Shown here piece after piece: positions 4,660 to 29,889 of a stretch of DNA of 31,456 bases. A model generated the notes under the pieces. That model was given only the letters and a program-made list of their open reading frames with translations. It did no database searches and was not told where the DNA came from. Each line of letters starts with the position of its first letter. Position 1 is the first letter of the stretch. The translations under genes were made by a program, and so were the position numbers. The stretch spans positions 1 through 31,456 of the IMG/VR virus record IMGVR_UViG_3300009059_000040; one strand, given 5' to 3'. Origin of the DNA: a virus.

Positions 4660-4667
4660 AATAAATA
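4660..4667 (-). promoter_or_regulatory. Late-promoter candidate TATTTATT
   Basis: Sense-strand TATTTATT ends 18 nt before the ATG at 4641, in the 31-nt gap between two virion-type genes. It is one of nine near-identical boxes in front of mostly virion-type genes in this window. Confidence 0.55.
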
Positions 4668-4672
4668 TCTGA

Positions 4673-6157
4673 TTAGTTTATTCTAATCGATTTATTTAAG
4701 ATATCGTTCTCTAATGTTTCAAAAACCTTCTCCAATTCAAATAAATGGGGGGTTTCTAAAGGAATTAATTTACCCGGGTTATGTGTGTGTGATTTTATTA
4801 CCTTATAAAGTAATATGAGGGCCTTAATAAGATTCTCACCCCTAACGGTTGCATAAGTATTAGGTTCAATAAGAGTTAGTAGTTCTTCTTGAGTGTATTC
4901 ATACTTGTTTAACTTATCAAAAGGAATTGATAGATTACCTGATTTATTGGTATCGGTAGAGATAAGATATATTTTATCGGAGGTTAACGAACCAAAAGTC
5001 TGTTCAATGTTTTTAGAAACTGTAGATAAACGATTTTCCTCAGTTACAACCGACTTTCCTCTAGGAGAATTTTCGGTCATACTATAGTAAAGTCCCGACC
5101 CATTTATTGATTCAATATTGGTGGTGGGTTTTACATTTTTTAGAAAATCAATATCTGTTAAGGTTTTGACCGGTCTAAAATAAAATGGATGTAAAAAGAC
5201 ATTAGGTAACCTTTTATCAAACTCCTTTAAACCTTTCGTGTTTAACAGATCAATGGTTCTTCTAATTGTAACATAAGCCAACTGATACGATGTAACCGGT
5301 TGGGTAAAAGTAGGTGTTACCGTTGTACCATCTAAATTTATTAGTTTTACCGAATTAGAATACGAAATTAAATCTTGTGCGGTGTTAGCATTAAATACAG
5401 ACGTATTAAAAGTATCCCCATATACGTCTTTTACTTCATAAACATACCAACTTATTGTTGTGGGGTCCGTTAAACTATCTACGTTATATTCAACCACATA
5501 GTTTAGTTTACCTTTAGGTATGACAAATTCACTTACTTTTATTAATTTATTCTCTTGTTTAGAAGAGAATTTTTTTAATGAGAATATTGCCGTTTTATCG
5601 GTTCTAATAGGTAATGATTGGATATCTTCTTTTACCGCTTTAGGGGAATCTTTTGAGAGGTACTTACCACCTCTTAGGGATATACCATTCTCTGTAAATA
5701 AAACGTCGGAACCGTATGGTCCATAAATTGCATAATCACTAAATTTTGCAAGTGAACCTTCTGATTTTTTATTTTTATAGGTACCTGTGACAGAATTTAT
5801 TAGGTCTTTAGTTTTCTTGACGACACCACCATAAGAGGTTCCACCTAATTGTTGTGAGTTAACCTGAGAATTAAAATCATGTATGGTTGTAAATGGTCCC
5901 GCAATATACTCTCTGTTAACCAAATCGTTATCAGGATCATATGTTACAATTTTAATTGTTTGACCTACTTCAGGTATGTAGTTGATATTGGTTGGTAGAA
6001 ATGGTTTAGCCAAAAATGGGTCGTTATTGTCCCACGGTTCATATTTAACTCCTCGTTCTCTCGCACTACTAGATTCCCCCATAACTTTATATCGAACTCT
6101 TCCGATACCTAATGGGTCCAAATTATCGTCTACGATTGCAAGTTTAATATAACTCAT
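4673..6157 (-). CDS. 5: Baseplate hub OB-fold protein, gp5-like
   Basis: 494 residues. The N-terminal 105 residues start with an OB-fold pattern (DPLGIGRVRYKVMG, PWDNNDPF, PEVGQTIKIV, then IAGP) typical of gp5/VgrG-type baseplate hub proteins, which cap the tail tube and lead into the spike. ISLRGGKY near residue 160 is another typical beta element. T4 gp5 carries an internal lysozyme domain after the OB fold; I see no lysozyme motif here and no long spike beta-helix, so the cell-wall-degrading and spike parts must lie elsewhere. It is joined to the 73-residue gene by TAATG at 6157. The OB-fold assignment is good; the exact T4 equivalence is inferred. Confidence 0.72.
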   Translation of the reverse strand: MSYIKLAIVDDNLDPLGIGRVRYKVMGESSSARERGVKYEPWDNNDPFLAKPFLPTNINYIPEVGQTIKIVTYDPDNDLVNREYIAGPFTTIHDFNSQVNSQQLGGTSYGGVVKKTKDLINSVTGTYKNKKSEGSLAKFSDYAIYGPYGSDVLFTENGISLRGGKYLSKDSPKAVKEDIQSLPIRTDKTAIFSLKKFSSKQENKLIKVSEFVIPKGKLNYVVEYNVDSLTDPTTISWYVYEVKDVYGDTFNTSVFNANTAQDLISYSNSVKLINLDGTTVTPTFTQPVTSYQLAYVTIRRTIDLLNTKGLKEFDKRLPNVFLHPFYFRPVKTLTDIDFLKNVKPTTNIESINGSGLYYSMTENSPRGKSVVTEENRLSTVSKNIEQTFGSLTSDKIYLISTDTNKSGNLSIPFDKLNKYEYTQEELLTLIEPNTYATVRGENLIKALILLYKVIKSHTHNPGKLIPLETPHLFELEKVFETLENDILNKSIRIN

Positions 6158-6357
6158 TACTTAACTAACCTATTACCAATTTCTTTATTTATTTTGTTAT
6201 ATGATTCTTCTACTGCATCCAAATATTTCGTAAGTTGGATAACGGCGTCTTTTGTTTTTTCAAATTCATTCTCTAAAAAATCTAAACATTCATTTAAATC
6301 TTTGTTAGATTTAATTTCGGGATTTTTTAATATCTCAGATACTTTATTTTTTTCCAT
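6157..6357 (-). CDS. Small coiled-coil protein
   Basis: 66 residues with the start at MEKNKVSEIL, one base after the preceding gene's stop codon; a longer start at 6378 would overlap that gene by 20 nt. The sequence is almost entirely charged helix with heptad-like Leu/Ile spacing, suggesting a coiled coil. It sits between the large helix-rich protein and the hub OB-fold protein, so a chaperone or small baseplate component is possible. No family is recognised. Confidence 0.65.
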   Translation of the reverse strand: MEKNKVSEILKNPEIKSNKDLNECLDFLENEFEKTKDAVIQLTKYLDAVEESYNKINKEIGNRLVK

Positions 6358-6358
6358 T

Positions 6359-8257
6359 TTAAAACATTTTACCTGCACTATTAATTATACCCGGTGGTAT
6401 AACTATAGGACCAACAGGTGTTGGAATTGTTACCATTTTATTACTTGCCTTAACGAAAGAATTATTATCCATTTCCTCACTCATTCCTTCGATTATTGCC
6501 TTGGTCATAATTAGATATTCATTTGCTTCACCGTAAATTGTTCCAACATTTAATCCCGCTGCGGCCATTCTTTCCGCCGCGTTCATATATGCTCTATCGG
6601 CACTGTAACCGGGTAGAAGATCCGAAAACCCCAATAAAAATCCGGGTACATTTATTTTACCACCTGGTAGGTTTAACGCCCCTTTAACCGCCGCGAGTAT
6701 CGCTTGGAAAATCGCTAAACAATTATCAAAACCTTGACTCAATAAAGTTCTTAGTAGAGAAATAATAGCGGTGATAATTCTTACGTAGTGTTTGTATTTG
6801 TTTTTAAGAATTCTTTGACCAATCGATAAAATAAAATTTAAAAGGTCTTTCTTTATAAATTGCCAAAATTCCTTCAAGAACTTCCAAAAAACTTTTTTAA
6901 TAATTATGTAAATTAATTCACCTAACTTCTTCATTAATTCATATACATCACCTACAGCACCTTTAATTTGTTTCCAAGCCACAACTAATGGGAAAATAAA
7001 TTTAGGGGAAATGACAGAAGAAACTAATGCCTTAGGTACATTCAATATAAAGAGATTTACTAATTCTAAATTTATATTTTGAAAAAGTTTATTATCATCC
7101 ACTGATAAACTCGCATTTAATGCGACGTTCTCTAAGGTACTGTCCACTAAAGATTGAAGATCTCCTGAGGATAAATAAACAAAATCCTCAAAACTATTTT
7201 GTGGTGATGGTACTTCAAAATTACCACAATCCACAAATCTTAATACTTTTCTATAACGAGAATCTTCATCATCAATATCAATACCTTCAACATCATTAAA
7301 ATCAAAATATGAAAGAATATCTTGATCATTTTCCGAAAACTGTTGACTGGTTGTTTGTAACTGACTTGATTCGTCGGGAGATCCACATATTTTAAAGAGT
7401 TTTGAACATAATCTATTCAGATAATTTAATGCCTTGTCAACACCTTCAGGGTTTTCTCCATCACCCTGCAATGTCATTAACATCGATGTTTTTATAATAT
7501 CTTCAATTTTAGGTGTTTCAATACTATCATAGTAATCATCGATAAAATCACTCACCTTAACCGCACCAACAATTCCTTGTTGTAACCCTGACACATTGTA
7601 TTCCTGATTAGTTGTATTCCATGTTAAATCGAACAAGTTATTACCTGATTTACTAGTAAAACTGTAGTTAGACGAAAATGCTCCGTAAAACTCCCTATTC
7701 ATTTTGATATCACCATATGTTGGTGACTCTTGTTCATACATAATAATACCAATCTTGGAAGAAGGGTCTGTTTGGAGTACATTTAAGAAGTCAAATTCCT
7801 TTGGTGAAATTACCATACTGTCTGTTGGGATAAGTGTATCGACCCCACAGATACTTGACTCTGTATTAACAAATAAAAATTGTTTAATACTTTCTTTAAC
7901 AATGTTTTTAGAATCTTTGACAGTTATGTTCGCGGACTCTAAGGCGTATTTTTTAATTTTGTTAGATGACAATAATTTATCATCTTCTTTTACGGGAACC
8001 TTATTAGATTTTGCAGAAAGAAAATCACTTGCAATACCAATGACAGAACCAAAAATATCTTCTTTATTACTATTCTCTTTCTTTTTAAGTTTAGATTTAA
8101 GACCGTCAATGGAACTAGATAATTTTTTATCTAAATCAGCATTTCCTAAATAGAGATCATAGAGTTCGTCGGTCGACTTTTTAGGGTCGTCCTGTATTTT
8201 CTTAACTATTTCTAGTTTAGATTTTATCTCACGTCTTAATCTCTTAACTTTACTCAT
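6359..8257 (-). CDS. Large helix-rich protein of the baseplate-gene cluster
   Basis: 632 residues. Residues 1-110 are Lys-rich, coiled-coil-like. Residues 397-528 form a long run of hydrophobic and amphipathic helices (for example GELIYIIIKKVFWKFLKEF and YVRIITAIISLLRTLL), unusual for a soluble structural protein. A Gly/Pro-rich segment follows, then a well-ordered AERMAAAGLNVGTIYGEAN block, and the protein ends in a Pro/Ile-rich tail (TPVGPIVIPPGI). The hydrophobic region could insert into membranes or pack inside a tail complex. I do not recognise the family with certainty. It is joined by TAATG junctions to neighbours on the 5' side (8257) and is almost contiguous with the coiled-coil gene, so it is co-expressed with the hub protein. 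Confidence 0.75.
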   Translation of the reverse strand: MSKVKRLRREIKSKLEIVKKIQDDPKKSTDELYDLYLGNADLDKKLSSSIDGLKSKLKKKENSNKEDIFGSVIGIASDFLSAKSNKVPVKEDDKLLSSNKIKKYALESANITVKDSKNIVKESIKQFLFVNTESSICGVDTLIPTDSMVISPKEFDFLNVLQTDPSSKIGIIMYEQESPTYGDIKMNREFYGAFSSNYSFTSKSGNNLFDLTWNTTNQEYNVSGLQQGIVGAVKVSDFIDDYYDSIETPKIEDIIKTSMLMTLQGDGENPEGVDKALNYLNRLCSKLFKICGSPDESSQLQTTSQQFSENDQDILSYFDFNDVEGIDIDDEDSRYRKVLRFVDCGNFEVPSPQNSFEDFVYLSSGDLQSLVDSTLENVALNASLSVDDNKLFQNINLELVNLFILNVPKALVSSVISPKFIFPLVVAWKQIKGAVGDVYELMKKLGELIYIIIKKVFWKFLKEFWQFIKKDLLNFILSIGQRILKNKYKHYVRIITAIISLLRTLLSQGFDNCLAIFQAILAAVKGALNLPGGKINVPGFLLGFSDLLPGYSADRAYMNAAERMAAAGLNVGTIYGEANEYLIMTKAIIEGMSEEMDNNSFVKASNKMVTIPTPVGPIVIPPGIINSAGKMF

Positions 8258-8637
8258 TACATTTCATATTTTTGAGAACCACCTTTAGGGGTTTCATCAT
8301 CTTCTTTCATTAGTTTTTCTAATAAAAGTCTATCCTCTTCAGTAAGATCTAATTTACCCTGACTGATTGCTTGTCCACCACCCATTTGTTTGAGTAAAAC
8401 ACTCTGTAATTTCACAAGAGATATCTTCTTTTCAGTACAATCATTTAATATCTTCTGTTGTTCCTTAATAACGGGTCCGATGACACTCATATCTTCTGCC
8501 TCTTTCATGAAACTTAACATCTTTTTAGTTATCAAGTTGGCAGTTTGTTTCTGTTCTACAATATCGTTATAGATTTCTTGCATAAGTGCAAGTGCAGAAT
8601 CCGTATCTAATGATAATATATTTGTCTTTCTTCTCAT
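8257..8637 (-). CDS. Small helical protein opening the baseplate operon
   Basis: 126 residues, mainly helical; residues 15-90 look like two long helices, followed by a QMGGGQ turn and an acidic C-terminal helix. No domain is recognised. It is the first gene of a leftward late operon: TATTTATA (8641-8648, minus strand) ends only 3 nt from its ATG, and its stop overlaps the next start as TAATG. A scaffold, chaperone or minor tail component is possible; position is the only evidence. Confidence 0.72.
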   Translation of the reverse strand: MRRKTNILSLDTDSALALMQEIYNDIVEQKQTANLITKKMLSFMKEAEDMSVIGPVIKEQQKILNDCTEKKISLVKLQSVLLKQMGGGQAISQGKLDLTEEDRLLLEKLMKEDDETPKGGSQKYEM

Positions 8638-8640
8638 ACC

Positions 8641-8648
8641 TATAAATA
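8641..8648 (-). promoter_or_regulatory. Late-promoter candidate TATTTATA
   Basis: On the minus strand TATTTATA is followed by only three bases and then the ATG at 8637. If it acts like a T4 late box, transcription would start at or next to the ATG, giving a leaderless mRNA. It lies in the 19-nt gap after the sigma gene. Confidence 0.55.
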
Positions 8649-8656
8649 GGTTGTTT

Positions 8657-9358
8657 CTAATTATTTATGAAATCCATTTTAAGTAGATCGTAAAGTTTTT
8701 TATACTTTTTCATAGCAATTCTTATCTCTTTTGTGGATAGTGAGGTCATTTCTCTTAGAGATAATAATATTAGGTTTTTATTAAACTTATTCCCATCACC
8801 AACTTGGAAAATTTTGTCAAAGTTGGAGAATATCTCAATTAATGCGTAACCTAATTTTTTTTCGTTATCACTAAGATCTTCCTTTTCAATGAAGAGTTCC
8901 AATTCGGTGGTTAATTTGGTGACTATGTTTTTATAGTCTAACTCTTCTTCATCAATAACATAAGATAGGTCCGCCCTATCTTCGAGTCTAGTTGATATAT
9001 CCTCGTAGGAGACGGACCTATTATTTTCTTTGGCATCTTTTTGTATGGTACCCATTAAGTAATTTTTACAAATGGTTCCAAAATAGGAATATGCCTTATA
9101 ATTCTTAGTTGTGTCGAATTTACTGATCTTAGTCATTAAGAATGACATGGTATCAGTATGAATTTCTTCAAACTCGTAATCTTTCCTGTAAAGTTTATAA
9201 CGGCGGATAATACTTTCCACCATTATTGTGAGAGGTTCTTCTAAATATTCTCTGAATATCTTATTCTTTTCGTCTTCGTTTTCGGATTCTAAATATCGTA
9301 CTACCGCTTGTTCTTGCTCCTCCCCAAAATAAATTTTTTGGGTTCGTTTTCTCGGCAT
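8657..9358 (-). CDS. 55: Late-transcription sigma factor, gp55-like
   Basis: 233 residues (T4 gp55 is 185). Residues about 63-110 match sigma region 2: FEEIHTDTMSFLMTKISKFD, then an aromatic YKAYSYFGTICKNYLMG helix that would contact the promoter -10 box and core polymerase. There is no convincing region 4, as in T4 gp55, which recognises only a -10 element and relies on the sliding clamp and gp33 for activation. It lies at the end of the leftward metabolic operon, one base overlapped with the GT2 gene (TAATG), and so would be made before late genes. It is the obvious candidate to read the TATTTAT boxes in this window. Confidence 0.82.
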   Translation of the reverse strand: MPRKRTQKIYFGEEQEQAVVRYLESENEDEKNKIFREYLEEPLTIMVESIIRRYKLYRKDYEFEEIHTDTMSFLMTKISKFDTTKNYKAYSYFGTICKNYLMGTIQKDAKENNRSVSYEDISTRLEDRADLSYVIDEEELDYKNIVTKLTTELELFIEKEDLSDNEKKLGYALIEIFSNFDKIFQVGDGNKFNKNLILLSLREMTSLSTKEIRIAMKKYKKLYDLLKMDFINN

Positions 9359-10143
9359 TACTTTTCTACATATTCAATCTCTCGTTTATTTTTAAAGAAA
9401 AATTCTTTTTTTGCGGTTTCTAACCAAAATTTAGGTTCATCGTTACTTAATTTGTTTGATTCATCATTCTTATATGACCAAAATAACGAGTCTTCTCTAA
9501 AATTAACGTGACGATATCCTATTTGAGGAATAACGACAACCTTAACACCATTATGTGTTAATCTTAAAAGAAACTCATAACTAAATGTGAGTTTAATGTT
9601 TTCCTTAAATGAACCGTTCTCTTTAATAACTTCGGTTTTGTAGATACCACCACTGGTTTGATAGTTCTGATAATCCAATAATAGTTCATTATCAATGACA
9701 CCCTGTTTTTCACTAAAACCGTATGCCCAAACAGACTCGTTAGTGAAATTAGTTAACTTACCTTCACTATTAACGTCTTTAACGATTGGGAGGAATACGT
9801 CGGCATCTTCAAACATAGTTCTATACTTGTTAAACGAATTTAACCAATTTGGTGTGTACTCATCATCAATTTCTAAAATAGAGAACCATTCAGTATCACA
9901 ATTATCAATACCTAAGTTGACTTGAGAACAGAAATCTGTTAATCCTTTATTTTTGATAATATTAATATCCAATTTATCCGAAAGACCTTCTTTCTTTAGG
10001 TCTCCCACGATATCTGTGGGACCTACAACTAATAACTTAACATCATCATAAAATTGTTCAACAGTACTTATTGCGTTTGAGAACATTTCTCTATAATCAC
10101 CATCTAAAGTGTGGATTGGTAGAATTACTGTTATATTTTTCAT
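9358..10143 (-). CDS. Glycosyltransferase, GT-A fold (GT2-like)
   Basis: 261 residues. The N-terminal ITVILPIHTLDG strand-turn, the SQVNLGID helix start, and E91-I-D93-D94-E95 (metal/nucleotide-sugar DxD-type motif) after WFSILE are characteristic of family 2 glycosyltransferases; the DVFLPIV and YQTSGGIYKTEV segments fit the acceptor half. It would transfer a sugar from a nucleotide sugar to an unknown acceptor. The start forms an ATGA overlap with the GT-B gene upstream (10140-10143), and the stop overlaps the sigma gene, so all three are co-translated. Acceptor may be phage DNA, virion protein or host surface; the sequence does not decide. Confidence 0.82.
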   Translation of the reverse strand: MKNITVILPIHTLDGDYREMFSNAISTVEQFYDDVKLLVVGPTDIVGDLKKEGLSDKLDINIIKNKGLTDFCSQVNLGIDNCDTEWFSILEIDDEYTPNWLNSFNKYRTMFEDADVFLPIVKDVNSEGKLTNFTNESVWAYGFSEKQGVIDNELLLDYQNYQTSGGIYKTEVIKENGSFKENIKLTFSYEFLLRLTHNGVKVVVIPQIGYRHVNFREDSLFWSYKNDESNKLSNDEPKFWLETAKKEFFFKNKREIEYVEK

Positions 10144-11210
10144 ACGTTTACTTCTTCTTTTAATTTATTTAACGCATCTTCAATACTTTTAACTCTCGTT
10201 GTTTTAAAAGAATTAAAAATAGATAATACATTTGAGTCAATAATCTCATCATTAAATGGTATTAAAGTCTCTTTCATTTTTTCTTTAACTTCATCATTAA
10301 TTGTAACTCCTTCCAACCACGCCATAACGTAAGTTCCGATCAGTTCAACAATTTTGTGTAAGTCATATGTCCATATTCCATTATCACCCAACCATTCGGG
10401 TTCATTGTTCGGGATTTTACCTATAACAGGTATCTCACACTTCATAGATTCCAATGGGAATGTTCCAAATGTAGATTCATCATCTAACCAAACAGAACAA
10501 ATACACTCTTGTAATTGTAATGCAAAATCTTCATATGTCATTTGGACCATATCTTTAAATGTAACCCATCTCAATTGTGGGTACTTTAAATAGAATTCTG
10601 AAATAATTCTCCTGTGTTGGCCTCTATCTCTTGCACTGATTGCAATGAAAGGTTTTGCAGGTTGTTCGGATGGTTTGAAAATATCACCAATTTTAGGCGG
10701 ATTTATGAAAATTAATGATTCGGGGAACACACTTTTAATATATTCCTTAGATTTTTCGGTTGTGGTAATTACTTTATCAAAACCATAATCACTCCATCTA
10801 CTACCCACGGGTAATGTCTCGAAGATATACTCAACTTGTTGTACCAACATGATTTTGGTACATTTAACATTTGCAAGTTGTTCTAAGACATTTGAGTAGT
10901 ATTCAGGAACTACAAGAACATCATCAACATTCATTTGTATCTGATCTTCTTTAATTGTTACAACGGGAATGTCCTTGTATCTATCCCCTAACCAACTTCT
11001 TACTCCTCCGTAATTTTTATCTTCAACGAGAATTTTAGCGTCTACCCCCTCTTTTCTAAGAGTTTCTACGGTATCGTAAATGTATTTAATTGCAGCCCTT
11101 GCATTCCCTTTAGTGTCGTAGGTCAGAAAATAAACTTTATATTCATTATTCTGTAGTCGACCTAAAGCGGATTCTAGACGTGTAATGTTGTCTTGTGTTT
11201 GATCACTCAT
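10140..11210 (-). CDS. Glycosyltransferase, GT-B fold
   Basis: 356 residues. The N-terminal Rossmann-like half has VYFLTYDTKGNARAAIKYI and VDDVLVVPEYYS; the C-terminal half has PFIAISARDRGQHRRI and then DDESTFGTFPLESMKCEIPV, the E-rich donor-binding motif of GT-B (GT4-like) enzymes. The sugar donor and acceptor are unknown. It overlaps its upstream neighbour by 8 nt and the GT2 gene by ATGA. Paired GT-A and GT-B genes suggest two steps of one glycan modification. Confidence 0.78.
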   Translation of the reverse strand: MSDQTQDNITRLESALGRLQNNEYKVYFLTYDTKGNARAAIKYIYDTVETLRKEGVDAKILVEDKNYGGVRSWLGDRYKDIPVVTIKEDQIQMNVDDVLVVPEYYSNVLEQLANVKCTKIMLVQQVEYIFETLPVGSRWSDYGFDKVITTTEKSKEYIKSVFPESLIFINPPKIGDIFKPSEQPAKPFIAISARDRGQHRRIISEFYLKYPQLRWVTFKDMVQMTYEDFALQLQECICSVWLDDESTFGTFPLESMKCEIPVIGKIPNNEPEWLGDNGIWTYDLHKIVELIGTYVMAWLEGVTINDEVKEKMKETLIPFNDEIIDSNVLSIFNSFKTTRVKSIEDALNKLKEEVNV

Positions 11211-11496
11211 CTTCTTTAGTTAATATTTGATATTTTATTAGTGTGTTAAATGCAATTTTAAATGGAATAGAGAGTTCACTATTTAGAAGTCCCAATCCAT
11301 TATCATCTTGTGCCGGTTCGGTTAAAATAGTATCTAAACACATTTTTATTGTATCGTATTTAAAAACATTTATAGTTTGATCTACCGAACCTGTGGCAGT
11401 ACCTTCTTCATCGGTGTCAACGTCAACTGTTAATTCACAGCTTTCAGTAATCTTGTCAATGTTGAGGTAATAATATTCTCCGAGGATTTCAACCAT
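11203..11496 (-). CDS. Unknown small acidic protein
   Basis: 97 residues, acidic, with an N-terminal GEYYYLNIDKI strand and a C-terminal PFKIAFNTLIKYQIL helix. No family is recognised. The proposed start at 11496 lies 67 nt inside the end of the HAD-like gene in another frame, an unusually long overlap; the next in-frame ATG is near codon 51, which would remove half the protein. Either the overlap is real or the upstream gene is shorter than drawn. It is followed by the GT-B gene with an 8-nt overlap. Confidence 0.68.
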   Translation of the reverse strand: MVEILGEYYYLNIDKITESCELTVDVDTDEEGTATGSVDQTINVFKYDTIKMCLDTILTEPAQDDNGLGLLNSELSIPFKIAFNTLIKYQILTKEDE

Positions 11497-12080
11497 TTTT
11501 CTTTTATTTCTGTTAATTTATGTATTTCTAAAGGATTTGTAAAGTGTTGATTATAGTCGGTATTGAATTTAACCACTTTCTTAGATCTAGGACATAGGTC
11601 AATAACTGACTTATTATCTGTAATCCACAAATCACATTGTTTCCACAGATTCGGTATTTCCGAATTTATAGAGAACTTTATATTATTACCCATGAATCCA
11701 TTCTTCGATAAAAAGAATAGGGTTGACGGTTTAGATTTACCCAACTCGTCCAATCCAACCAAAGTGAATCGATGTTCCTTATTCTCATAAATCAATTTAT
11801 TTAATTCAAAAAATACGTTCGAATAACTTGGATTTGCATGACCAAATATTTCAACCGCATAATCCATAAATGTGAAGTTATCGAATTCTTCTTTTGATTG
11901 GAACTTATAACTCTCCAATAAAAAACTATTCCTTACAGGTTCAGTCACCCCATATTGGAATGACCGTTCCTCTTCGGTAAGATTTTCAGGTTCGGTATCT
12001 AAGTAATAATCCTTATAGTGATAATCAAACTTTGCTATTGTGTTTCTAAGAACACCATCTATACTGATAAAAATTTCCAT
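11430..12080 (-). CDS. HAD-like protein with altered catalytic motif
   Basis: 216 residues. The N-terminus MEIFISIDGVLRN resembles HAD motif I (DxDGVLR), but the nucleophile aspartate is serine (S6-I-D8-G). Later TLFFLSKNGF and LWITDNKSVID resemble motifs II/III and IV regions. HAD enzymes remove phosphates from nucleotides, sugars or proteins; this copy may be inactive as a phosphatase or may act differently. It is preceded by a weak host-type promoter (TTTA, 19 nt, TATATTTT) in the 41-nt gap before PhoH. Its 3' end overlaps the next gene by 67 nt. HAD fold is an inference from motifs. Confidence 0.7.
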   Translation of the reverse strand: MEIFISIDGVLRNTIAKFDYHYKDYYLDTEPENLTEEERSFQYGVTEPVRNSFLLESYKFQSKEEFDNFTFMDYAVEIFGHANPSYSNVFFELNKLIYENKEHRFTLVGLDELGKSKPSTLFFLSKNGFMGNNIKFSINSEIPNLWKQCDLWITDNKSVIDLCPRSKKVVKFNTDYNQHFTNPLEIHKLTEIKEKWLKSSENIITSTLTRLLKAVN

Positions 12081-12121
12081 GTTTAAAATATAATAAAAAT
12101 TTTATTATAAGTAAAGTTTTA

Positions 12122-12838: not shown

Positions 12839-12858
12839 TCTTATAATATATTTTTTAT

Positions 12859-14285: not shown

Positions 14286-15515
14286 TTACTTGTTAATAAT
14301 TGATTTAAAGAATTCCACTCTATTTTTAGAAACAGTGGAGAGGGAATATTTGTCTTCCACTGTTTCGTATAATCTATTACCCAAATCAGTTATCATATTT
14401 GGATTTTCGATTAATCTTTTCATATGTTGATTCCATTGTTTGTGGTTTTTAGATGATTGCACCAACAACGAATTACCATTTTCCGTGAAGTTACCATTTT
14501 CATATCCACTAACCAAATCTATAAGGTAAGGATTTTCCGCACTTGCAATAATTGCTTTCTTATGGAACCCCGCTTCAATTACTTTCAGTTGGGATTTATT
14601 ATGATTAAACTCAGTACTAACAATTGGTGCTAATGATACATCGAAGTAGTTGTAATTGGTTGCATATTTGTTAATATCCATGGTCCATCGCCTCACGTAT
14701 GGTTGATCTAAATCATTTGGGTATGATGTATTTTGATAAGTTTTAAGGAAACTTGCATAATCTTCAGTAACGGAATTATACCTGTTGGTAAAGATTTCCT
14801 CATACTTCGCCCAAACAGTTTCCTCAGGTCTTATTGGTCTTTCTCGAACCTGACCCGTTAATTTGTTTATTTCCCTCATGTTTCCACGAGTATCAAACCC
14901 ACATAGTACAAATTGAACTTTGTCTTTAAATTGGTTTTGTGTTTGAGAAATACCACCCCTAAGAAGTTCTAAATCATGGTAGTGTGAGGACCCACCTAAC
15001 CAACCAAATCTAACTTTTTCAGATTTAATAGGGTTAGGTTTAAACTGAGATTCCTTTTCATTTACTGCGTTTGGAAAAATCTCAACGTTTTTGATGTTGA
15101 GTGACTTTTTAATTGTATCTCTATAGATTGAGGTTGTGGTTGTTACATAATCTACCGAACGAAGAAGTTCTACTCTCTTTTTTGCAAGATCATTCTTCTT
15201 AAATGTTTCGTAGTTTGGATGTCTTTGGTCTACTCTCCAAAAATCATCAGTATCCATAACAACTTTAATTCCATTCTCTTTCAACCACCCAATTCTCTTC
15301 AAATTTTCCTCATGATTTGTTTTATGAATAAAAGAATGAAATACTACAATATCATAGTTGGAAAAATAGTCATCAGAATTTGGCACATCGAACACAATAT
15401 CCACATGCACCTCATCCGAGTGGTTATCACCAATATAGGTAAATGGATCTAATATTCTAAATTTACCAACCCCATGTGAATCTGAGGGTACGGCAAGTAT
15501 TCTGATTTTTGACAT
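14286..15515 (-). CDS. Glycosyltransferase, GT-B fold (GT4-like)
   Basis: 409 residues. The N-terminal half has SDSHGVGKFRI (nucleotide-sugar glycosyltransferase-like Gly turn) and IKVVMDTDDFW (84-93), a signature common in phage and bacterial GT4-type proteins; FGWLGGSSHYHDL starts the second Rossmann half, and SQLKVIEAGFHKKAIIAS near residue 318 is the donor-binding C-terminal motif. Substrates are unknown. It is the first gene of the leftward metabolic operon, with a probable host-type promoter at 15533-15564 and an mRNA leader of only about 11 nt. It is the third glycosyltransferase in 6 kb. Confidence 0.8.
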   Translation of the reverse strand: MSKIRILAVPSDSHGVGKFRILDPFTYIGDNHSDEVHVDIVFDVPNSDDYFSNYDIVVFHSFIHKTNHEENLKRIGWLKENGIKVVMDTDDFWRVDQRHPNYETFKKNDLAKKRVELLRSVDYVTTTTSIYRDTIKKSLNIKNVEIFPNAVNEKESQFKPNPIKSEKVRFGWLGGSSHYHDLELLRGGISQTQNQFKDKVQFVLCGFDTRGNMREINKLTGQVRERPIRPEETVWAKYEEIFTNRYNSVTEDYASFLKTYQNTSYPNDLDQPYVRRWTMDINKYATNYNYFDVSLAPIVSTEFNHNKSQLKVIEAGFHKKAIIASAENPYLIDLVSGYENGNFTENGNSLLVQSSKNHKQWNQHMKRLIENPNMITDLGNRLYETVEDKYSLSTVSKNRVEFFKSIINK

Positions 15516-19049: not shown

Positions 19050-19057
19050 TATAAATA
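19050..19057 (-). promoter_or_regulatory. Late-promoter candidate TATTTATA
   Basis: Minus-strand TATTTATA ends 15 nt before the ATG at 19034. Together with the plus-strand box at 19075 it forms a compact divergent promoter pair. The same bases read TATAAATA on the plus strand, the exact T4 late box, but the consistent orientation at other genes favours the minus-strand reading. Confidence 0.5.
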
Positions 19058-19074: not shown

Positions 19075-19082
19075 TATTTATT
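19075..19082 (+). promoter_or_regulatory. Late-promoter candidate TATTTATT
   Basis: TATTTATT ends 5 nt before the ATG at 19088, right-hand half of a divergent pair with 19050-19057. It decides the start choice for the downstream gene. Confidence 0.5.
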
Positions 19083-19087: not shown

Positions 19088-19516
19088 ATGAATAGTCAGG
19101 ATATTTTAAGAAATTTGGGAATAAGTTTCGATTTGGAGTTGGATAATTCCGAAACTTACGATTATGAAATCTCATCATTTGATGACGATTATGACAAAAA
19201 AGTCATAGATTTTAATAACGCAATAAATTTTAATGTTGGAGTACAGAACAACCTTACAGGTCATAGTACACAAAGAATATGCATAGATTTATGTGAAATA
19301 GATAATAGACCCAACGATCCTAACTACATATATTCAGGAATAACCCAATCAATATCTTATTCAGAATTTACCCAACATTTCAATATTCTTGACAGTCAGG
19401 GAGTTGTGACTCATGAATATGAAAATTTTATACTAAATAATGACGTTTATACTTACACAGGTTTTACCAATGAAGTACATTATTTTAAAATTTGTGGTTA
19501 TAGTTTAGATTGTTAG
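19088..19516 (+). CDS. Unknown small acidic protein
   Basis: 142 residues starting MNSQDILRN. An upstream in-frame ATG at 19067 would put the late box inside the gene, so 19088 is preferred. The product is acidic (DDDYDKK region), beta-rich and aromatic, with four cysteines (two in ICIDLC). No family is recognised. It precedes two virion-type genes on the same strand, each with its own late box, so a small structural protein is likely. Confidence 0.7.
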   Translation: MNSQDILRNLGISFDLELDNSETYDYEISSFDDDYDKKVIDFNNAINFNVGVQNNLTGHSTQRICIDLCEIDNRPNDPNYIYSGITQSISYSEFTQHFNILDSQGVVTHEYENFILNNDVYTYTGFTNEVHYFKICGYSLDC

Positions 19517-19558: not shown

Positions 19559-19566
19559 TATTTATA
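19559..19566 (+). promoter_or_regulatory. Late-promoter candidate TATTTATA
   Basis: TATTTATA ends 13 nt before the ATG at 19580 in the 63-nt gap after the preceding gene. Confidence 0.55.
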
Positions 19567-19579: not shown

Positions 19580-20512
19580 ATGTTAGAAATCTCAGGTTTT
19601 ACCACAAATTTAATTGAGTGTCAATCTAAATTATCTGATAGTTGTTGTCCAATAGACCCGACGTTAGGTGTTAGATCGTGGGCATATCAATTTAATACCC
19701 ATGGGGGTGTGGATAATTGTGAATTTTTAATAGACCGAAGAGTAGAAAAAGGTTGGACTTTAGATTTCGTTTTCAATAGAGAAAGTTTACCGTGGTCTCT
19801 TGGTAGTACATTTTATTTTTTTGGGGTAAGAGACGAGAATGATCCAAAATTATTTGCCGATAATAATCTTTCATTTTCTTTCACATCTGATGGTAGAGTA
19901 AAATGGGAGTCTTATAGATATTCGGGTGAATGTATTAATGAAGTCTACCAAGAGTCGTTTTATATTGACTCAGGTGTAACCCCCGTTTTGTGTACTGAAG
20001 GAACAAAAACAGATTTTAATTTAACTATTGTTTTTGATCGACATTTAAGACTTACCGAATGTGATGTAGAAAATTCGGGTGGTTGGAATGATTTAATTAC
20101 GGGGGAGACTATAACAAATGCATCCGACGTTGTTTTATCAGGATCAACTGAACAATATCAATATAACGAGGAATTAAATAAAGATTGGAATGATGAGAGA
20201 TACGCTCGATTAGGTGTTTTGAAAATATATCTAAATGGGTGGCCTATCTATAAAAAAGACAATTGGGAGGAAATTGTCCCATCAAACAGAGGGTTCCAAC
20301 CATTTGTACAATCTTGGGGTGGGGGTGCATCCGGTTCGGGGGGTATTCACGAAGGTGTGACAGAATTTAATTTAAAAAGAATTAAGTACATTGAAGAACC
20401 ATTAAACGCGTTGGAGGTAAAACATCATTACGTTGTCTCAACTAGTCCTTTTTTCGATATAACGGAATGTGTTAGTCCATGTGTAGAAACGATCACACCA
20501 TTTGTTGGTTAA
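19580..20512 (+). CDS. Lectin-like (LamG/ConA-type) virion protein
   Basis: 310 residues. A beta-sandwich pattern is visible: GWTLDFVFNRESLPW, then TFYFFGVRDENDP, LSFSFTSDGRVKWESYRY, a second half with LGVLKIYLNGWPIYKKDN, and a Gly-rich loop QSWGGGASGSGGIHEG. This resembles LamG/concanavalin-like domains in tail-fibre proteins of marine T4-like phages, where they would bind surface glycans. Cysteines are frequent (CCP near the N-terminus, CVSPC near the C-terminus). Late box at 19559 supports virion function. The exact tail position is unknown. Confidence 0.7.
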   Translation: MLEISGFTTNLIECQSKLSDSCCPIDPTLGVRSWAYQFNTHGGVDNCEFLIDRRVEKGWTLDFVFNRESLPWSLGSTFYFFGVRDENDPKLFADNNLSFSFTSDGRVKWESYRYSGECINEVYQESFYIDSGVTPVLCTEGTKTDFNLTIVFDRHLRLTECDVENSGGWNDLITGETITNASDVVLSGSTEQYQYNEELNKDWNDERYARLGVLKIYLNGWPIYKKDNWEEIVPSNRGFQPFVQSWGGGASGSGGIHEGVTEFNLKRIKYIEEPLNALEVKHHYVVSTSPFFDITECVSPCVETITPFVG

Positions 20513-20527: not shown

Positions 20528-20535
20528 TATTTATT
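20528..20535 (+). promoter_or_regulatory. Late-promoter candidate TATTTATT
   Basis: TATTTATT ends 4 nt before the ATG at 20540, the same spacing as at 27888. A leaderless mRNA is predicted if the box works like a T4 late promoter. Confidence 0.55.
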
Positions 20536-20539
20536 AGAT

Positions 20540-20908
20540 ATGGAATTTTTTATAAGAAAAGACGCAACCGACCCGATTTTAAAGATGAGATTGGTTGATG
20601 ATGGTAGAAATGATAAATCATCGTTGAATGATTTATTAGAAAATGCCGATATTAGGTTTGATATGTATGAAGTCGAAACGGAGATTCCTCATATTTTAGG
20701 TGGACAGTGTAATTTAACCACAAGGACAAAAAAATATGATCAAACCACTGAAGAATATTATATAACGTATAGATTTACTTCAGAACAAACCAAAGAATCA
20801 GGAAAATTTGAGGGGATTATAACTGTACAGTTTAGAGACACTAACCTACAGCCGACCAATAAGTTAATTGTTCCAATTAAAGAGAAACTCTTTATAAACA
20901 TCATTTAA
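20540..20908 (+). CDS. Small virion protein, BppU-like beta domain
   Basis: 122 residues. The order FIRKDATDPILKMRLVDDGR, SLNDLLENADIRFDMYEVE, YYITYRFTSEQT, GKFEGIITVQF and LIVPIKEKLFINI matches the layout of the N-terminal domain of baseplate upper protein (BppU) and similar small beta-sandwich proteins common in tailed phages. It would be a baseplate or fibre-attachment component. It lies directly after the lectin-like protein, which supports a shared structure. Similarity is by pattern only. Confidence 0.7.
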   Translation: MEFFIRKDATDPILKMRLVDDGRNDKSSLNDLLENADIRFDMYEVETEIPHILGGQCNLTTRTKKYDQTTEEYYITYRFTSEQTKESGKFEGIITVQFRDTNLQPTNKLIVPIKEKLFINII

Positions 20909-20910
20909 TC

Positions 20911-20969: not shown

Positions 20970-21029
20970 TATTGGATAAGACTAACTACCTACCTAAGGT
21001 AAGCTAATGTGTCACTTAAATAATACATA

Positions 21030-23918
21030 ATGAAAGAAATAATCTCCCAAGAGGTAATCGAAGAATTCCTTAACGGCGCAGACCCTGAAGAGTATATTAC
21101 GGGTTTAGAGTACGAGTACAGTACAAACACAATCTACAAAATCATCCAACACCCCGAAAAGGGTAAAATAATTCGAAGTGATAAATTAACTCCATTTCTT
21201 TGGGTTAGTGATATTTCTGAATTAAATTTTTACGGTGGTAGTAAAGCACTACAACGTAAGAAAATGATGGAATTCGGTATTATCATTGAGAAGTTGGATA
21301 CTCATGATAATGAACGATTAGAAAATGGTTTCAATTATCTCGTTAAAAGTACCAAAGGTTATAAAGAACTTTTAGGTTTCTTTCGTCAAGGTGGTATAAA
21401 CCCGTGGGATGAGGACGTTAGACATCATTTCATTTTATTAAATCCAAAAGAACAATACCTAATCCAAAAAGAGAAAAGACTTTTTAAGGGTATTGAAGAA
21501 TACGAGGACGTTCATCGTTTAGTATTCGATATTGAAACCACAGGTCTTGAACCCGAAAAGGATAAAATCATCCTTATCGGAATGAAGGATAATCGTGGTT
21601 TTTTAAAGATCATTAATGCGTTTGGTGAAGATGGGGAGAAAAACTGTATTATAGAATTTTTTGAATATCTCTGTGAACTTAAACCAACAATTTTTGCGGG
21701 GTACAACTCTGCATTCTTCGACTTCCCGTTTATTTTAAAGAGAGCGGAGATTTTGGGTGTAAATGTTGAAGAATACACAAAAGTCTTTGTTGATCAGGGT
21801 ATTAAAGAGAGAGAAGGTATGCTTAAACTCGCCAACGAGGTTGAGAAGTATACCCAACATATGATATGGGGTATGAATATTCTCGATATTGCCCATGCGG
21901 TAAGGAGAGCACAGGCAATCAACTCTGAAATTAAGTCGTGGGGTTTGAAGTACATTACGAAATACCTTGGTGCGGAAAAAGAGAATCGAGTTTATGTGGA
22001 CGGTCCTAAAATTTCAAAGATTTATTTAGAAAACGAAAGTTACTATGTTAACCCAAAGACGGGTAATTATAAAAAAATCGGTGAAAAGGGAACTGAGGGT
22101 TTATTAGAAAAATATCCCGGTAAATTCGAGATATGGACAGGTCGTAAAATTGTTGAACAGTATTTGGATGATGACTTAATTGAGACTATGGTGGTTGACG
22201 AATCATTTAGTCAATCAACATTCCTACTCTCTAAAGTGGTACCAACAACATACGAGAGGATTTCAACTATGGGGACTGCAACATTATGGAAACTCATCAT
22301 GTTAGCTTGGTCTTATAAACATAATTTGGCCGTACCTGAAAAACAGGAACGAAGAGCAATTACAGGTGGTTTGTCAAGATTATTGACAGTTGGTTATTCG
22401 ACCAACGTGGTTAAATTTGACTACTCATCACTATATCCTTCTATTCAATTGGTTTATGACGTTTTCCCTGACTGTGATGTTATGGGGGTACAAAAATCTA
22501 TGTTGAAGTATTTCCGAGATGTCCGTATTAAATACAAGAAGTTGGCCTCTGAATACAAGAAGAAGGATCCTGAATTGGCCGAAAAATACGATCGTAAACA
22601 ATTGCCAATCAAAATCTTCATTAACGCATATTTTGGATCACTTTCAGCGCCACACGTTTTTCCGTGGGGTGATATGGATATGGGGGAAACAATTACATGT
22701 GTGGGGAGACAGAGTCTTAGAATGATGATTATGTTTTTCCAACAAAAGGGTTATAAACCTTTAGTAATGGATACTGATGGTGTTAACTTCTCATGTCCTG
22801 AAAATGTAGAGGAAAGAAGATATGTGGGTAAAGGTTTAAATGAATTGGTGGAAGAGGGTAAAGTATATGAAGGTGCCGAAGCCGATACCGCGGAATTCAA
22901 TGACATTTTTATGAGAGGTGAGATGGGATTAGATATTGATTATGTTGCCCCGTCAACGGTTAATTTTGCCCGTAAAAATTACGTACTTAAAAAACCAAAT
23001 GGTGGACTTAAACTAACGGGTAACACGATTAAATCTAAAAATCTTCATGGGTACATTGTTGATTTCTTAGACGAAGGTTTAGGTTTATTACTTGACGGTA
23101 AAGGTTACGATTTTTTAGAGGTCTATTACAAATACATTGAAAAGATCTTCAATAAGGAAATTCCTTTGGCTAAAATTGCCAATAAATCACGGGTAAAACA
23201 AAGTATCGAAGATTATAAAAAACATATGAAAAAAAGAACCAAAAGTGGTTCTCTTATGTCTAGACAGGCACATATGGAATTAGTTATATTAAACGACTAT
23301 CCTGCGGGTTTAGGTGAAACAATATACTATGTTAACAACGGTATAAAGAAGAGTGACGGGGATGTTCAGAAAATAACAAAACCAACTAAGAAATTCCAAC
23401 AGGAATACTTTGAGAAACACGGTACTGAGGTTCCACCTGACTATATTCAAATTAACTCTTTTATGATTACCGAAAAAGAGTTGGAAGAGAATCCCGATAT
23501 GAAGGGAGACTATAACATTGCAAGATATTTGGATACGTTTAATAAAAGAATTGAACCATTGTTAGTTGTTTTTCACCCTGATATCCGAGCAGATATTTTA
23601 ATTGATGATCCTAAAGACAGACCGTTCTTTACTCGACAACAGTGTGAATTAGTATCAGGATACCCAATTAAAGAAGGTGGGCAAGACAATTACGATGACG
23701 TAATGACCTTATCGGATAGTGAAGTACTATTTTGGAATAAAGTACAAAGAGACCCTTTCTTTATGTATTTAGAAGACAGTATTAACTATGTGGACCAACA
23801 TTGGGTCAACGTTAACAGAGAAGTCGTCAGTTTTAAAAGACCGAGTACGGTTTCAAACGAAGATGAGATTATTGAAAGAAATGGTCACGATTACGCAACA
23901 CACGGTGACGATTTTTAA
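21030..23918 (+). CDS. 43: Family B DNA polymerase, gp43-like
   Basis: 962 residues (T4 gp43 is 898). The 3'-5' exonuclease motifs are present: FDIETTG (D167, E169), GYNSAFFDFPF, and the third motif near MNILDIAHAVRRAQ. Polymerase motif A is D464-YSSLYPS, motif B contains K-IFINAYFGSLSA, and motif C reads D581-T-D583-G instead of the common DTDS. It is the replicative polymerase with proofreading. Transcription probably starts early from the host-type promoter at 20938-20969. The 54-nt leader has a small TACC-TAA-GGTA hairpin; T4 gp43 represses its own translation through a leader hairpin, but here this is only a thought. The stop shares TTAA with the convergent neck gene. Confidence 0.97.
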   Translation: MKEIISQEVIEEFLNGADPEEYITGLEYEYSTNTIYKIIQHPEKGKIIRSDKLTPFLWVSDISELNFYGGSKALQRKKMMEFGIIIEKLDTHDNERLENGFNYLVKSTKGYKELLGFFRQGGINPWDEDVRHHFILLNPKEQYLIQKEKRLFKGIEEYEDVHRLVFDIETTGLEPEKDKIILIGMKDNRGFLKIINAFGEDGEKNCIIEFFEYLCELKPTIFAGYNSAFFDFPFILKRAEILGVNVEEYTKVFVDQGIKEREGMLKLANEVEKYTQHMIWGMNILDIAHAVRRAQAINSEIKSWGLKYITKYLGAEKENRVYVDGPKISKIYLENESYYVNPKTGNYKKIGEKGTEGLLEKYPGKFEIWTGRKIVEQYLDDDLIETMVVDESFSQSTFLLSKVVPTTYERISTMGTATLWKLIMLAWSYKHNLAVPEKQERRAITGGLSRLLTVGYSTNVVKFDYSSLYPSIQLVYDVFPDCDVMGVQKSMLKYFRDVRIKYKKLASEYKKKDPELAEKYDRKQLPIKIFINAYFGSLSAPHVFPWGDMDMGETITCVGRQSLRMMIMFFQQKGYKPLVMDTDGVNFSCPENVEERRYVGKGLNELVEEGKVYEGAEADTAEFNDIFMRGEMGLDIDYVAPSTVNFARKNYVLKKPNGGLKLTGNTIKSKNLHGYIVDFLDEGLGLLLDGKGYDFLEVYYKYIEKIFNKEIPLAKIANKSRVKQSIEDYKKHMKKRTKSGSLMSRQAHMELVILNDYPAGLGETIYYVNNGIKKSDGDVQKITKPTKKFQQEYFEKHGTEVPPDYIQINSFMITEKELEENPDMKGDYNIARYLDTFNKRIEPLLVVFHPDIRADILIDDPKDRPFFTRQQCELVSGYPIKEGGQDNYDDVMTLSDSEVLFWNKVQRDPFFMYLEDSINYVDQHWVNVNREVVSFKRPSTVSNEDEIIERNGHDYATHGDDF

Positions 23919-25033
23919 ATCATAGTGAATGGAGACTGCATAGGGCGGTATTTCATCGCCTTATTCAGATTCTCCGCTTCATTACCTTTTCTCTCCAACA
24001 TCTTATCAGGACGTAATCTCTCAAGCCTTTGAGATAATTCCTCGACTAATTTTAATTTTTCGTCTTTACCTTCAGTTAAAAGAGACGTGTAATCTAATTT
24101 TACTTGACTATCAGGTACTTGGAGATCTCCCGAGAATTTAGAATAGATACGACCTAACCCCTCTTTTGAATACGCAATAAGATATTTTCTTACCCAATTC
24201 TGTGCGGGTTTATTAAGTGTCTCCCAAGTAAGTTCCTCTGTTTGTATGTCGGAAGGTAATTTTACAATATCCTTATTTTTCGCCAAACAATCGTCCCTAT
24301 CGTTGGTGTCGTAGTACCAATACCACACATAATAATTGTGTTGTTGTATGGAACCAAAATCAAACCTACCACCAGGAACATTAGCCAAGTGGACTAATTT
24401 TTTACCCTCAGGTAATGCGGTTATTCTATATGTTAATTCACCACCAATAAGACGGTTTTTAATATTTCTATCTTGCATTCTTGCAAGTAAATCATATGCA
24501 GGTAACATAAAGTAAGAACCTGATGCCCCCATTTGAGCAAAACCACCAACTCCACCAAAACCTACTCCACCGAGACCACCAAAACCACCTAAAAATGGGT
24601 CAACAATAGAATCAGTTAATTCCGCTCTTGTAAACCACAGTAATTCATTAATTTCTCGACCCGCAGGGATTTCATAAGTTTGTTGTCCCGGCACCAATTC
24701 TATCTTGTCTTTTTTAAGGACATAATCACCCCCTGTTTGTAGACCAACTATCTTTGAATAAGAATATGAATATTGTGTCTCATAGTCTAAGGATCGTGTT
24801 GTGAACGCTCTTGTCAACGACTGTGTGTCCACATCTAATCCCGCCAATGACGACCATTGTGATTCAATTAACCAATCACTAACGTACTGTTCGTATTCGT
24901 CTAAAGATAACTCTAAGAATGTGTCTAACTGTTCTTCAGTTAATTCTACAGACCTAATTGGCATTCCCAAAAGGTGTAAAACCTGAGAAAATAACTTCTC
25001 TCTATTTGTAGGTGTAATAATAGTGCTTGCCAT
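23915..25033 (-). CDS. Putative neck/head-completion protein (gp13-like)
   Basis: 372 residues. The N-terminal LLGMPIRSVELTEEQLDTFL, DEYEQYVSDW, the central VPGQQTYEIPAG, and the C-terminal AQNWVRKYLIAYSKEGLGRI plus ELSQRLERLRPD segments follow the plan of T4-like neck proteins (gp13-type) and related head-tail adaptor proteins that close the filled capsid. Residues 149-171 are an unusual Gly/Phe-rich run (GGFGGLGGVGFGGVGGF). Late box at 25048-25055. The stop overlaps that of DNA polymerase in a shared TTAA. Choice of gp13 over another neck protein is uncertain. Confidence 0.62.
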   Translation of the reverse strand: MASTIITPTNREKLFSQVLHLLGMPIRSVELTEEQLDTFLELSLDEYEQYVSDWLIESQWSSLAGLDVDTQSLTRAFTTRSLDYETQYSYSYSKIVGLQTGGDYVLKKDKIELVPGQQTYEIPAGREINELLWFTRAELTDSIVDPFLGGFGGLGGVGFGGVGGFAQMGASGSYFMLPAYDLLARMQDRNIKNRLIGGELTYRITALPEGKKLVHLANVPGGRFDFGSIQQHNYYVWYWYYDTNDRDDCLAKNKDIVKLPSDIQTEELTWETLNKPAQNWVRKYLIAYSKEGLGRIYSKFSGDLQVPDSQVKLDYTSLLTEGKDEKLKLVEELSQRLERLRPDKMLERKGNEAENLNKAMKYRPMQSPFTMI

Positions 25034-25035
25034 AC

Positions 25036-25066
25036 TTGATTTATTACAATAAATAGTTTATATTTG
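25036..25066 (+). promoter_or_regulatory. Host (Bacteroidetes-type) promoter of the possible nuclease gene
   Basis: TTG (25036-25038), 20 nt, TATATTTG (25059-25066), the same spacing and -7 box as at the DNA polymerase gene. RNA would start near 25073, about 14 nt before the TTG start codon at 25087. It overlaps the oppositely oriented late box of the neck gene. Confidence 0.62.
25048..25055 (-). promoter_or_regulatory. Late-promoter candidate TATTTATT
   Basis: Minus-strand TATTTATT ends 14 nt before the ATG at 25033. It lies inside the spacer of the divergent host-type promoter (25036-25066), so the two promoters would compete for the same DNA. Confidence 0.55.
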
Positions 25067-25086
25067 GGAAAACTAAAGAATTTATA

Positions 25087-27846: not shown

Positions 27847-27887
27847 AGTCCTTATTAAATATAAGGAATTCAAATCAATAATTAAAC

Positions 27888-27895
27888 TATTTATT
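27888..27895 (+). promoter_or_regulatory. Late-promoter candidate TATTTATT
   Basis: TATTTATT ends 4 nt before the ATG at 27900, as at 20528. It lies in the 53-nt gap between the divergent helicase and neck genes and would give a leaderless mRNA. Confidence 0.55.
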
Positions 27896-27899
27896 ACAT

Positions 27900-28412
27900 A
27901 TGAATAACAAGTTACCAATTACAAGATTAAATAAATTCTTTTCAAATGAGGATTTTGACTTTAATTTACAGTTAGGTCAGGAGTATCTTCATGGGGATTT
28001 GAATATGAAATTGGTTCTCTATCAAGTAGATAGGGATTCGACAGATACAGATGCGGTTTATGCCGAGGTCGGTAAGGATCAGATTAAATTTTTTCCTCCT
28101 ATTGAATTTAATGGGTTAGTTAAGATAGAACAACCTAAAAATTCTTCATATAAAAATGGTATGGTTAGGTATCTTGAACCCGGTAATATGACTATTTCGG
28201 TCTATATTAATCATTTAAAAGACCTCAATATTGACATTAAATACGGTGATTTCATTGGATACCCCGAAAGTGAAGACAGAGTTAGATATTATACAGTAAC
28301 CAATGACGGGAAAGTAACTTCAGATAACACACACAATATGTTTGGTTTCAAACCATATTATAGAACAATAACATGTGTTCCGGCACAGGAAGTAGAATTT
28401 AGAGGAGTATAA
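27900..28412 (+). CDS. Putative neck/connector protein
   Basis: 170 residues, beta-rich, with YGDFIGYPESEDRVRYYTVTND and FGFKPYYRTITCVPAQEVEF near the C-terminus. It directly precedes the tail-terminator candidate and the sheath gene, the place where T4-like genomes keep neck proteins (gp14/gp15 region), so a head-tail connector role is likely. I do not recognise the family firmly. Late box at 27888; the stop overlaps the next start by one base (TAATG). Confidence 0.65.
   Translation: MNNKLPITRLNKFFSNEDFDFNLQLGQEYLHGDLNMKLVLYQVDRDSTDTDAVYAEVGKDQIKFFPPIEFNGLVKIEQPKNSSYKNGMVRYLEPGNMTISVYINHLKDLNIDIKYGDFIGYPESEDRVRYYTVTNDGKVTSDNTHNMFGFKPYYRTITCVPAQEVEFRGV
28401..28407 (+). promoter_or_regulatory. 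Shine-Dalgarno-like site AGAGGAG
   Basis: AGAGGAG ends 4 nt before the ATG at 28412. It is the only clear Shine-Dalgarno-like sequence I noticed in the window and lies inside the coding end of the preceding gene. Confidence 0.5.
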
Positions 28413-29644: not shown

Positions 29645-29803
29645 TTATTCATCATAAAGACTACTTTTTCTTTCAGTACAGTTCTGATCGATCCATTTTT
29701 CAAGTACTCTATATAACTTAAAACCATTCTTATCACAGTAAGTTTTTAACTTATTGTGGTGTTCTACACTTATTTTAACGTTTTTGACTTTGTTGTTATC
29801 CAT
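29645..29803 (-). CDS. Small ribbon-helix-helix-like protein
   Basis: 52 residues from ATG 29803 (MDNNKVKN). VKNVKISVEHHNKLKTYCDK then GFKLYRVLEKWIDQNC fits a ribbon-helix-helix DNA-binding fold (one strand, two helices), as in Arc/MetJ-type repressors. Upstream in-frame ATG at 29878 would add a hydrophobic 25-residue leader and cross the late-box variant, so it is rejected. The gene is antisense between two late plus-strand genes, its stop adjoining that of the tail-terminator gene. A phage transcription regulator is likely. Confidence 0.68.
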   Translation of the reverse strand: MDNNKVKNVKISVEHHNKLKTYCDKNGFKLYRVLEKWIDQNCTERKSSLYDE

Positions 29804-29806
29804 AAA

Positions 29807-29814
29807 GATAAATA
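29807..29814 (-). promoter_or_regulatory. Late-box variant TATTTATC
   Basis: Minus-strand TATTTATC ends 3 nt before the ATG at 29803. Last base differs from the other boxes, so it is the least secure of the set. Confidence 0.35.
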
Positions 29815-29881
29815 TGGATAAAAAAGGATCTTTAAATATACCAAAATAAAAAAGTGGTGAAATCTTTACTAAAAACAAAGA

Positions 29882-29889
29882 TATTTATA
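29882..29889 (+). promoter_or_regulatory. Late-promoter candidate TATTTATA (tail sheath)
   Basis: TATTTATA ends 32 nt before the sheath ATG at 29922, the longest leader in the set. The 118-nt gap between the small regulator and sheath contains nothing else I can identify. Confidence 0.55.

Follow-up and report, generated by a model that had tools for sequence, protein, structure and literature searches.

The late promoters of bacteriophage T4 consist of a single 8-bp box without a -35 element, and the DNA downstream of the box is AT-rich (PMC2988020). The T4 box is TATAAATA and it is served by gp55, gp33, and gp45; coupling to the sliding clamp gp45 is a central part of late transcription in T4. 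In the T4 complex, Y97 stacks on A-12, N13 and H95 hold A-9, and T99 bonds A-8 (PMC7892883). Late octamers with gp55 homologues as readers also occur in T4-related cyanophages, KVP40, and Aeh1, and Aeh1 indicates that the late promoter core can drift, which was reported for positions -13/-12 (PMC2988020). Two other kinds of signals are relevant. The promoter class of the Bacteroidota primary sigma factor consists of TTTG at -33 and TAnnTTTG at -7. In bacteria, a TA-like signal about 12 bp ahead of the start codon is a sign of a leaderless gene (PMC3160421).

The element described in this work, TATTTATW, is similar to the T4 late promoters in that it is a single 8-bp -10-like element, has no -35 element, and is followed by AT-rich DNA. 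It also precedes virion and packaging genes rather than replication genes, in phages that encode a gp55-type sigma factor. However, its sense core is TATTTATA or, more broadly, TA[TC]TTATW. TATTTATA and TATAAATA agree at 6/8 positions (TAT..ATA), their central AA and TT differ, and they are reverse complements of each other. The two changed bases are at -10/-9, unlike the drift of Aeh1. The combination of a late octamer with a gp55 homologue is shared with the cyanophages, KVP40, and Aeh1; the homologue described here is a candidate reader. Further differences from T4 are that many sites in the Bacteroidota phages are at leaderless-type spacing and that no match to the T4-type clamp family was found in the relatives. 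The element resembles the Bacteroidota primary sigma promoter as an AT-rich -10/-7-type element near starts, but it is a single element with another core that lies before other genes, and the TTTG/TAnnTTTG pair is not found at its sites. It resembles the bacterial leaderless signals (PMC3160421) as a TA-type element that begins about 12 nt ahead of the start codon, but it is phage-specific, has a longer core, precedes putative late genes, and has an additional leadered class. We consider it likely that TATTTATW is a -10-like single-element late promoter, partly leaderless, of a large clade of T4-related Bacteroidota phages and that it is read by their gp55-like protein.

The sites in the window (the whole stretch of DNA that was analysed, a virus contig of 31,456 nt) and the gene of the gp55-like protein are given below, with the distance of the first T from the start codon and the fraction of orthologues that carry the box.

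3261..3268, minus strand: variant TACTTATT, -11 of gene 2823-3257 (-); TA[TC]TTAT in 38/42 orthologues
4660..4667, minus strand: TATTTATT box, -26 of gene 3271-4641 (-); 36/36 orthologues
8641..8648, minus strand: TATTTATA box, -11 of gene 8257-8637 (-), leaderless-type spacing; 38/38 orthologues
8657..9358, minus strand: gp55-like late sigma factor, proposed reader of the box (PHROG 234, PDB profile match, fold model)
12106..12113, minus strand: variant TACTTATA, -33 of gene 11430-12080 (-); 33/38 orthologues
19050..19057, minus strand: TATTTATA box, -23 of gene 18309-19034 (-); 25/25 orthologues
19075..19082, plus strand: TATTTATT box, -13 of gene 19088-19516 (+); 15/15 orthologues
19559..19566, plus strand: TATTTATA box, -21 of gene 19580-20512 (+); 1/3 orthologue upstreams, two of them remote
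20528..20535, plus strand: TATTTATT box, -12 of gene 20540-20908 (+); 4/4 orthologues
25048..25055, minus strand: TATTTATT box, -22 of gene 23915-25033 (-), neck, head-tail adaptor Ad2-like (PHROG 211); 4/4 orthologues
27888..27895, plus strand: TATTTATT box, -12 of gene 27900-28412 (+); 4/4 orthologues
29807..29814, minus strand: variant TATTTATC, -11 of gene 29645-29803 (-); 3/4 orthologues
29882..29889, plus strand: TATTTATA box, -40 of the tail sheath gene (PHROG 23) that starts at 29922 (+) and continues past the window end; TATTTAT at the homologous place in all 4 clade orthologues

Nine TATTTATW sites and the variants at 3261-3268 (-) and 29807-29814 (-) had been reported in a preliminary description of this DNA. 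All of them were recovered at the same coordinates and strands, and all nine TATTTATW sites lie upstream of start codons in sense orientation. The variant TACTTATA is an additional site. The first T of the boxes in the window lies at -11 to -40 from the start codon. The reported gap of 3-32 nt between box and codon also holds, given that the starts at 19034 (-) and 19088 (+) are placed at internal ATGs, the ORFs there being over-extended. The boxes at 19050-19057 (-) and 19075-19082 (+) form a divergent pair, and the gp55-like gene is closely followed by the box at 8641-8648 (-). The TACTTATW variant occurs mainly at one gene family (11430-12080), at -33 and not at -12, in most relatives, and it may represent a distinct regulatory class. 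The window also contains tandem repeats of about 141 nt at 16931-17757, inside gene 16877-17821, the product of which is a repeat protein with HPNAISDGDE.GKGENNG units.

The total number of TATTTATW in the window is 14 and dinucleotide shuffles give 13.55, so the claim for the window rests on position and strand; counts that ignore both were set aside as uninformative. The zone from -45 to -9 upstream of 37 curated starts covers 2.2% of the strand positions of the window. This zone contains 9/14 TATTTATW sites in sense orientation (binomial p 2e-12) and 12/24 sites of TA[TC]TTAT (p 2e-14). A search of the window for the fixed pattern TATTTATW-N10-ATG gave 0 matches, as the spacing varies. A scan of half of the window for E. 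coli-type sigma-70 promoters gave 60 sites, against 68 in shuffles.

The box is conserved gene by gene. It is present in almost 100% of the orthologues of boxed genes and in almost none of the orthologues of unboxed genes (0/41, 0/37, 0/40, 0/37, 0/28, and similar), down to protein identities of about 55-60%. The DNA polymerase, dUTPase, dCMP deaminase, and glycosyltransferase genes of the window have no box, and the same is true for almost all of their orthologues. The preliminary description had listed DNA polymerase, helicase, and glycosyltransferase genes as unboxed. This stands for the polymerase and glycosyltransferase genes, but for the SNF2 helicase it stands in the window only, where the gene has no box, and 2/4 orthologues have one. 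Glycosyltransferase-like genes (9358-11210 and 14286-15515 in the window) are located directly upstream of the sigma gene, unboxed, across the clade.

Relatives were collected using the gp55-like protein as the query, which gave 70 related loci, and an alignment-based search added 80 loci from the clade of Flavobacterium phage immuto and its sister clades. An unbiased ranking of 7-mers and 8-mers by sense versus antisense counts ranked TATTTAT-type words first or close to first in the relatives, and for the window clade (49 dereplicated loci) it gave TATTTAT-type words plus the A-rich start context. Among 947 genes, 200 TA[TC]TTATW sites are located at -40 to -11, compared to about 0-3 sites per 10-nt bin in most other bins. 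The reverse-complement controls in the relatives gave much lower counts. Sense TATTTATW is enriched before genes in every whole record examined and likewise in three groups on the immuto side. The scan of whole genomes and relatives, set against positions inside genes and on the wrong strand, thus strongly upholds the enrichment, which persists after control for strand and position.

Among cultured phages, Flavobacterium phage immuto is the closest relative, and its sigma homologue is 29% identical. Immuto has T4-like capsid, portal, and sheath genes, and its sigma homologue gene is located near baseplate genes. The boxed genes of immuto comprise those for terminase, portal, sheath, tail completion, tape measure, baseplate hub, structural, spike, and PhoH proteins. 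No box was found before any of its SSB, RecA, DnaB, ribonucleotide reductase, queuosine, and glycosyltransferase genes, nor before its major capsid gene. With classes assigned from the deposited product names and unnamed genes left out, the box precedes 9/20 structural genes and 0/38 metabolic genes (p 1.6e-5). The association with late genes that had been suspected from the window is borne out in a cultured phage with annotated genes. Another promoter type, TTG-N16-20-TAWNTTTA, is clustered at 60-78 kb of immuto among small unnamed genes. It resembles the TTTG/TAnnTTTG class, which serves host genes and, it appears, early phage genes, and its sites are likely early promoters.

The chromosomes of Flavobacteriia served as a negative control and T4 as a positive one. 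The chromosomes (34 loci, 589 genes) contain one TATTTATW at -30 to -11, compared to 46 TAnnTTTG at -30 to -21. The box is phage-specific with respect to flavobacterial chromosomes, and this negative control implies that such hosts use it neither as a general translation signal nor as their main promoter. T4, run through the same script and also as a whole genome, gave TATAAATA as a commoner sense element than TATTTATW before late genes.

The product of 8657-9358 (-) matches PHROG 234, annotated as late sigma transcription factor, with an E-value of 0.0011. A profile of 38 family sequences has T4 gp55 (7d7c_F) as its sole sequence match in the PDB (E 0.0086), where residues 4-153 are aligned on residues 4-158. 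This alignment of about 150 residues indicates homology to sigma region 2. The fold model has a mean pLDDT of 76 and a pTM of 0.45, and the Foldseek matches are mostly sigma factors, including 7d7c_F with a TM of 0.55 by target length; no Foldseek E-value is significant. The assignment of this protein as gp55-like, made in the preliminary description, is thus supported, though weakly by sequence. The C-terminus of the sigma factor in relatives reads LDFINN or GGFLE, reminiscent of the C-terminal SLDFLYE of T4 gp55 that binds the clamp in T4. A Pfam search for the T4-type clamp (PF02916) gave a match in T4 only and none in the relatives, where a divergent clamp or a gp33 may still be encoded.

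The residues that contact the bases in T4 were compared between the clades. Y97 and F86 are kept in the box-bearing clades (F86 is Y in Mel-JY01). N13 is replaced by G or T, and T99 by G, Q, or S, so that only Y97 is retained from the N13/Y97/T99 base-pocket set of T4 gp55. In the classical gp55s, N13 is kept (K in Moby) and the T99 position is T, N, or S. Under the T4 register, A-12 and A-8 are retained in the new box, and the difference is the TT at -10/-9. The changes at N13 and T99 are consistent with a change of specificity but are no proof of it, and the base contacted by T99 is the same in both boxes. H95 was rejected as the specificity switch, as it is F in the gp55s of cyanophages, phiN3, and Cr30 and Y in RB43 and does not separate the groups. 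The protein side therefore does not cleanly explain the base change.

An alternative is that the box is a promoter for a host sigma factor or another phage factor and that the gp55-like protein is not its reader. The link between the box and the sigma factor is a correlation, and it arises partly by construction, since the loci of the relatives were gathered through that sigma factor. Every tested box-bearing clade encodes a gp55-like sigma factor, with the same reservation. The expectation that phages with similar gp55 share the box was borne out in the window clade, the immuto clade, and a sister clade, and more weakly in Microcystis phage Mel-JY01, but it failed in LR756508. The sigma factor of this 484-kb uncultured phage is 40% identical to that of immuto and has D at the N13 position, and neither a TATTTAT/TATTTATA nor a TATAAAT/TATAAATA signal was found before its genes in the approximately 320 kb examined. 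Host-type TAnnTTTG sites also coexist with the box in relatives. However, the TAnnTTTG preference of the flavobacterial chromosomes and the lack of a -33 element at the box both argue against a host reader, and we regard this alternative as unlikely. The box very probably works as a late promoter that is read by a relative of the T4 late sigma factor, as judged from the sequence comparisons above.

The anatomy of the sites is consistent with this. The aligned sites exhibit no conservation at -35. T is nearly excluded from the position that precedes the box, the eighth position shows A, and the downstream region is A-rich; the core is TA[TC]TTAT[A/T], mostly with A or C in front of it. The box is found in only 8/441 genes with an upstream gap of less than 10 nt, compared to 104/207 genes with a gap of 30-99 nt. 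This scarcity in the absence of an intergenic gap is the pattern expected of transcription-unit starts. A hairpin plus T-run is located directly upstream of 22/217 boxed sites and 13/325 other sites, and a terminator at this place was set aside as a feature of the box because the effect is modest.

The first T is essentially never closer to the start codon than -11. The distances peak at -11, -12, and -13 (36, 44, and 17 sites in the window clade, with 0 at -10 to -8), and a second, leadered hump lies at -17 to -27. The spacing described for bacterial leaderless signals, with a first T that lies about 10-12 nt from the start codon and never nearer, is thus found here together with a leadered class. 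Given this limit and the TA-like precedent (PMC3160421), about one third of the boxed genes would be expected to be leaderless, and we consider leaderless mRNA from these genes probable. In the proposed mechanism, the gp55-like sigma factor and host RNA polymerase would melt the box and read it on the non-template strand, as T4 gp55 does at TATAAATA. RNA would start about 11-12 nt downstream of the first T. In about one third of the boxed genes, +1 would be the A of ATG, and the remaining genes would have a short leader, A-rich and about 5-15 nt long. With T4 numbering, where the box starts at -13, a site at -11 would start RNA inside the ATG, which implies that the register here is 1-2 nt shorter.

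The sharp peak at -11/-12 and the closeness to start codons could also suggest that the box is a translation signal, a start-context element of Bacteroidota without Shine-Dalgarno pairing, and not a promoter. The hosts are Bacteroidota, where starts are marked by A-rich contexts rather than Shine-Dalgarno sites. We judge this reading very unlikely, as the box is missing from the metabolic genes of immuto and from the flavobacterial host genes and is nearly missing from genes without an intergenic gap. The second spacing class also stands against it, as does Mel-JY01. This phage is the sole relative that carries Shine-Dalgarno sites (GGAG-type), and sense TATTTATA is found upstream of them, mostly at -39 to -54, with a weaker enrichment of TATTTAT (21 sense vs 7 antisense). 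A late promoter would be shifted to about -40 to -50 in this phage if the start point has to be followed by a leader that includes a ribosome site; the observed spacing supports this but is not conclusive.

As TATTTATA is the reverse complement of TATAAATA and some boxes lie in divergent regions, the box could be the T4 promoter in its usual orientation, driving antisense or divergent transcription. This is hardly credible. In every relative, TATTTATW is far more frequent than TATAAATA on the sense strand before genes, only 1/6 TATAAATA sites of the window fall in the upstream zone, the long same-strand operons of immuto carry 28 boxes on the coding strand and 3 on the other, and T4 itself yields TATAAATA by the same script. 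The preliminary description had excluded the T4 reading by orientation, and these counts agree with it. Chance or AT-rich intergenic composition, for which only the shuffle-level total in the window speaks, is negligible in view of the strand and position bias, the orthologue conservation, and the reverse-complement controls.

The preliminary proposal of a late promoter that is distinct from that of T4, opposite in orientation, and linked to a gp55-like protein is therefore supported by enrichment, conservation, gene class, and controls. What stands is a probable late-promoter element of the T4 kind with a changed core, which a large clade of uncultured phages shares with one cultured phage or more. 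The open-access literature that was searched does not connect TATTTAT with phage late promoters or late genes. We lean towards the broader view that the specificity of a widespread gp55-type branch has shifted at two central bases, which made its promoter the mirror strand of the T4 box, with leaderless late mRNA that would suit hosts whose initiation does not depend on Shine-Dalgarno sites.

The box may serve as an operational marker of late genes for hundreds of uncultured phage genomes in which most genes are unnamed, because a boxed gene is probably the start of a late transcription unit. The series of TATAAATA and TATTTATA, together with the aligned sigma factors and the T4 cryo-EM structure, bears on base readout by a minimal sigma domain. 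If the proposal is true, it would provide a natural series that traces changes of base readout in a one-domain sigma factor, and it predicts abundant leaderless late mRNAs in Bacteroidota phages.
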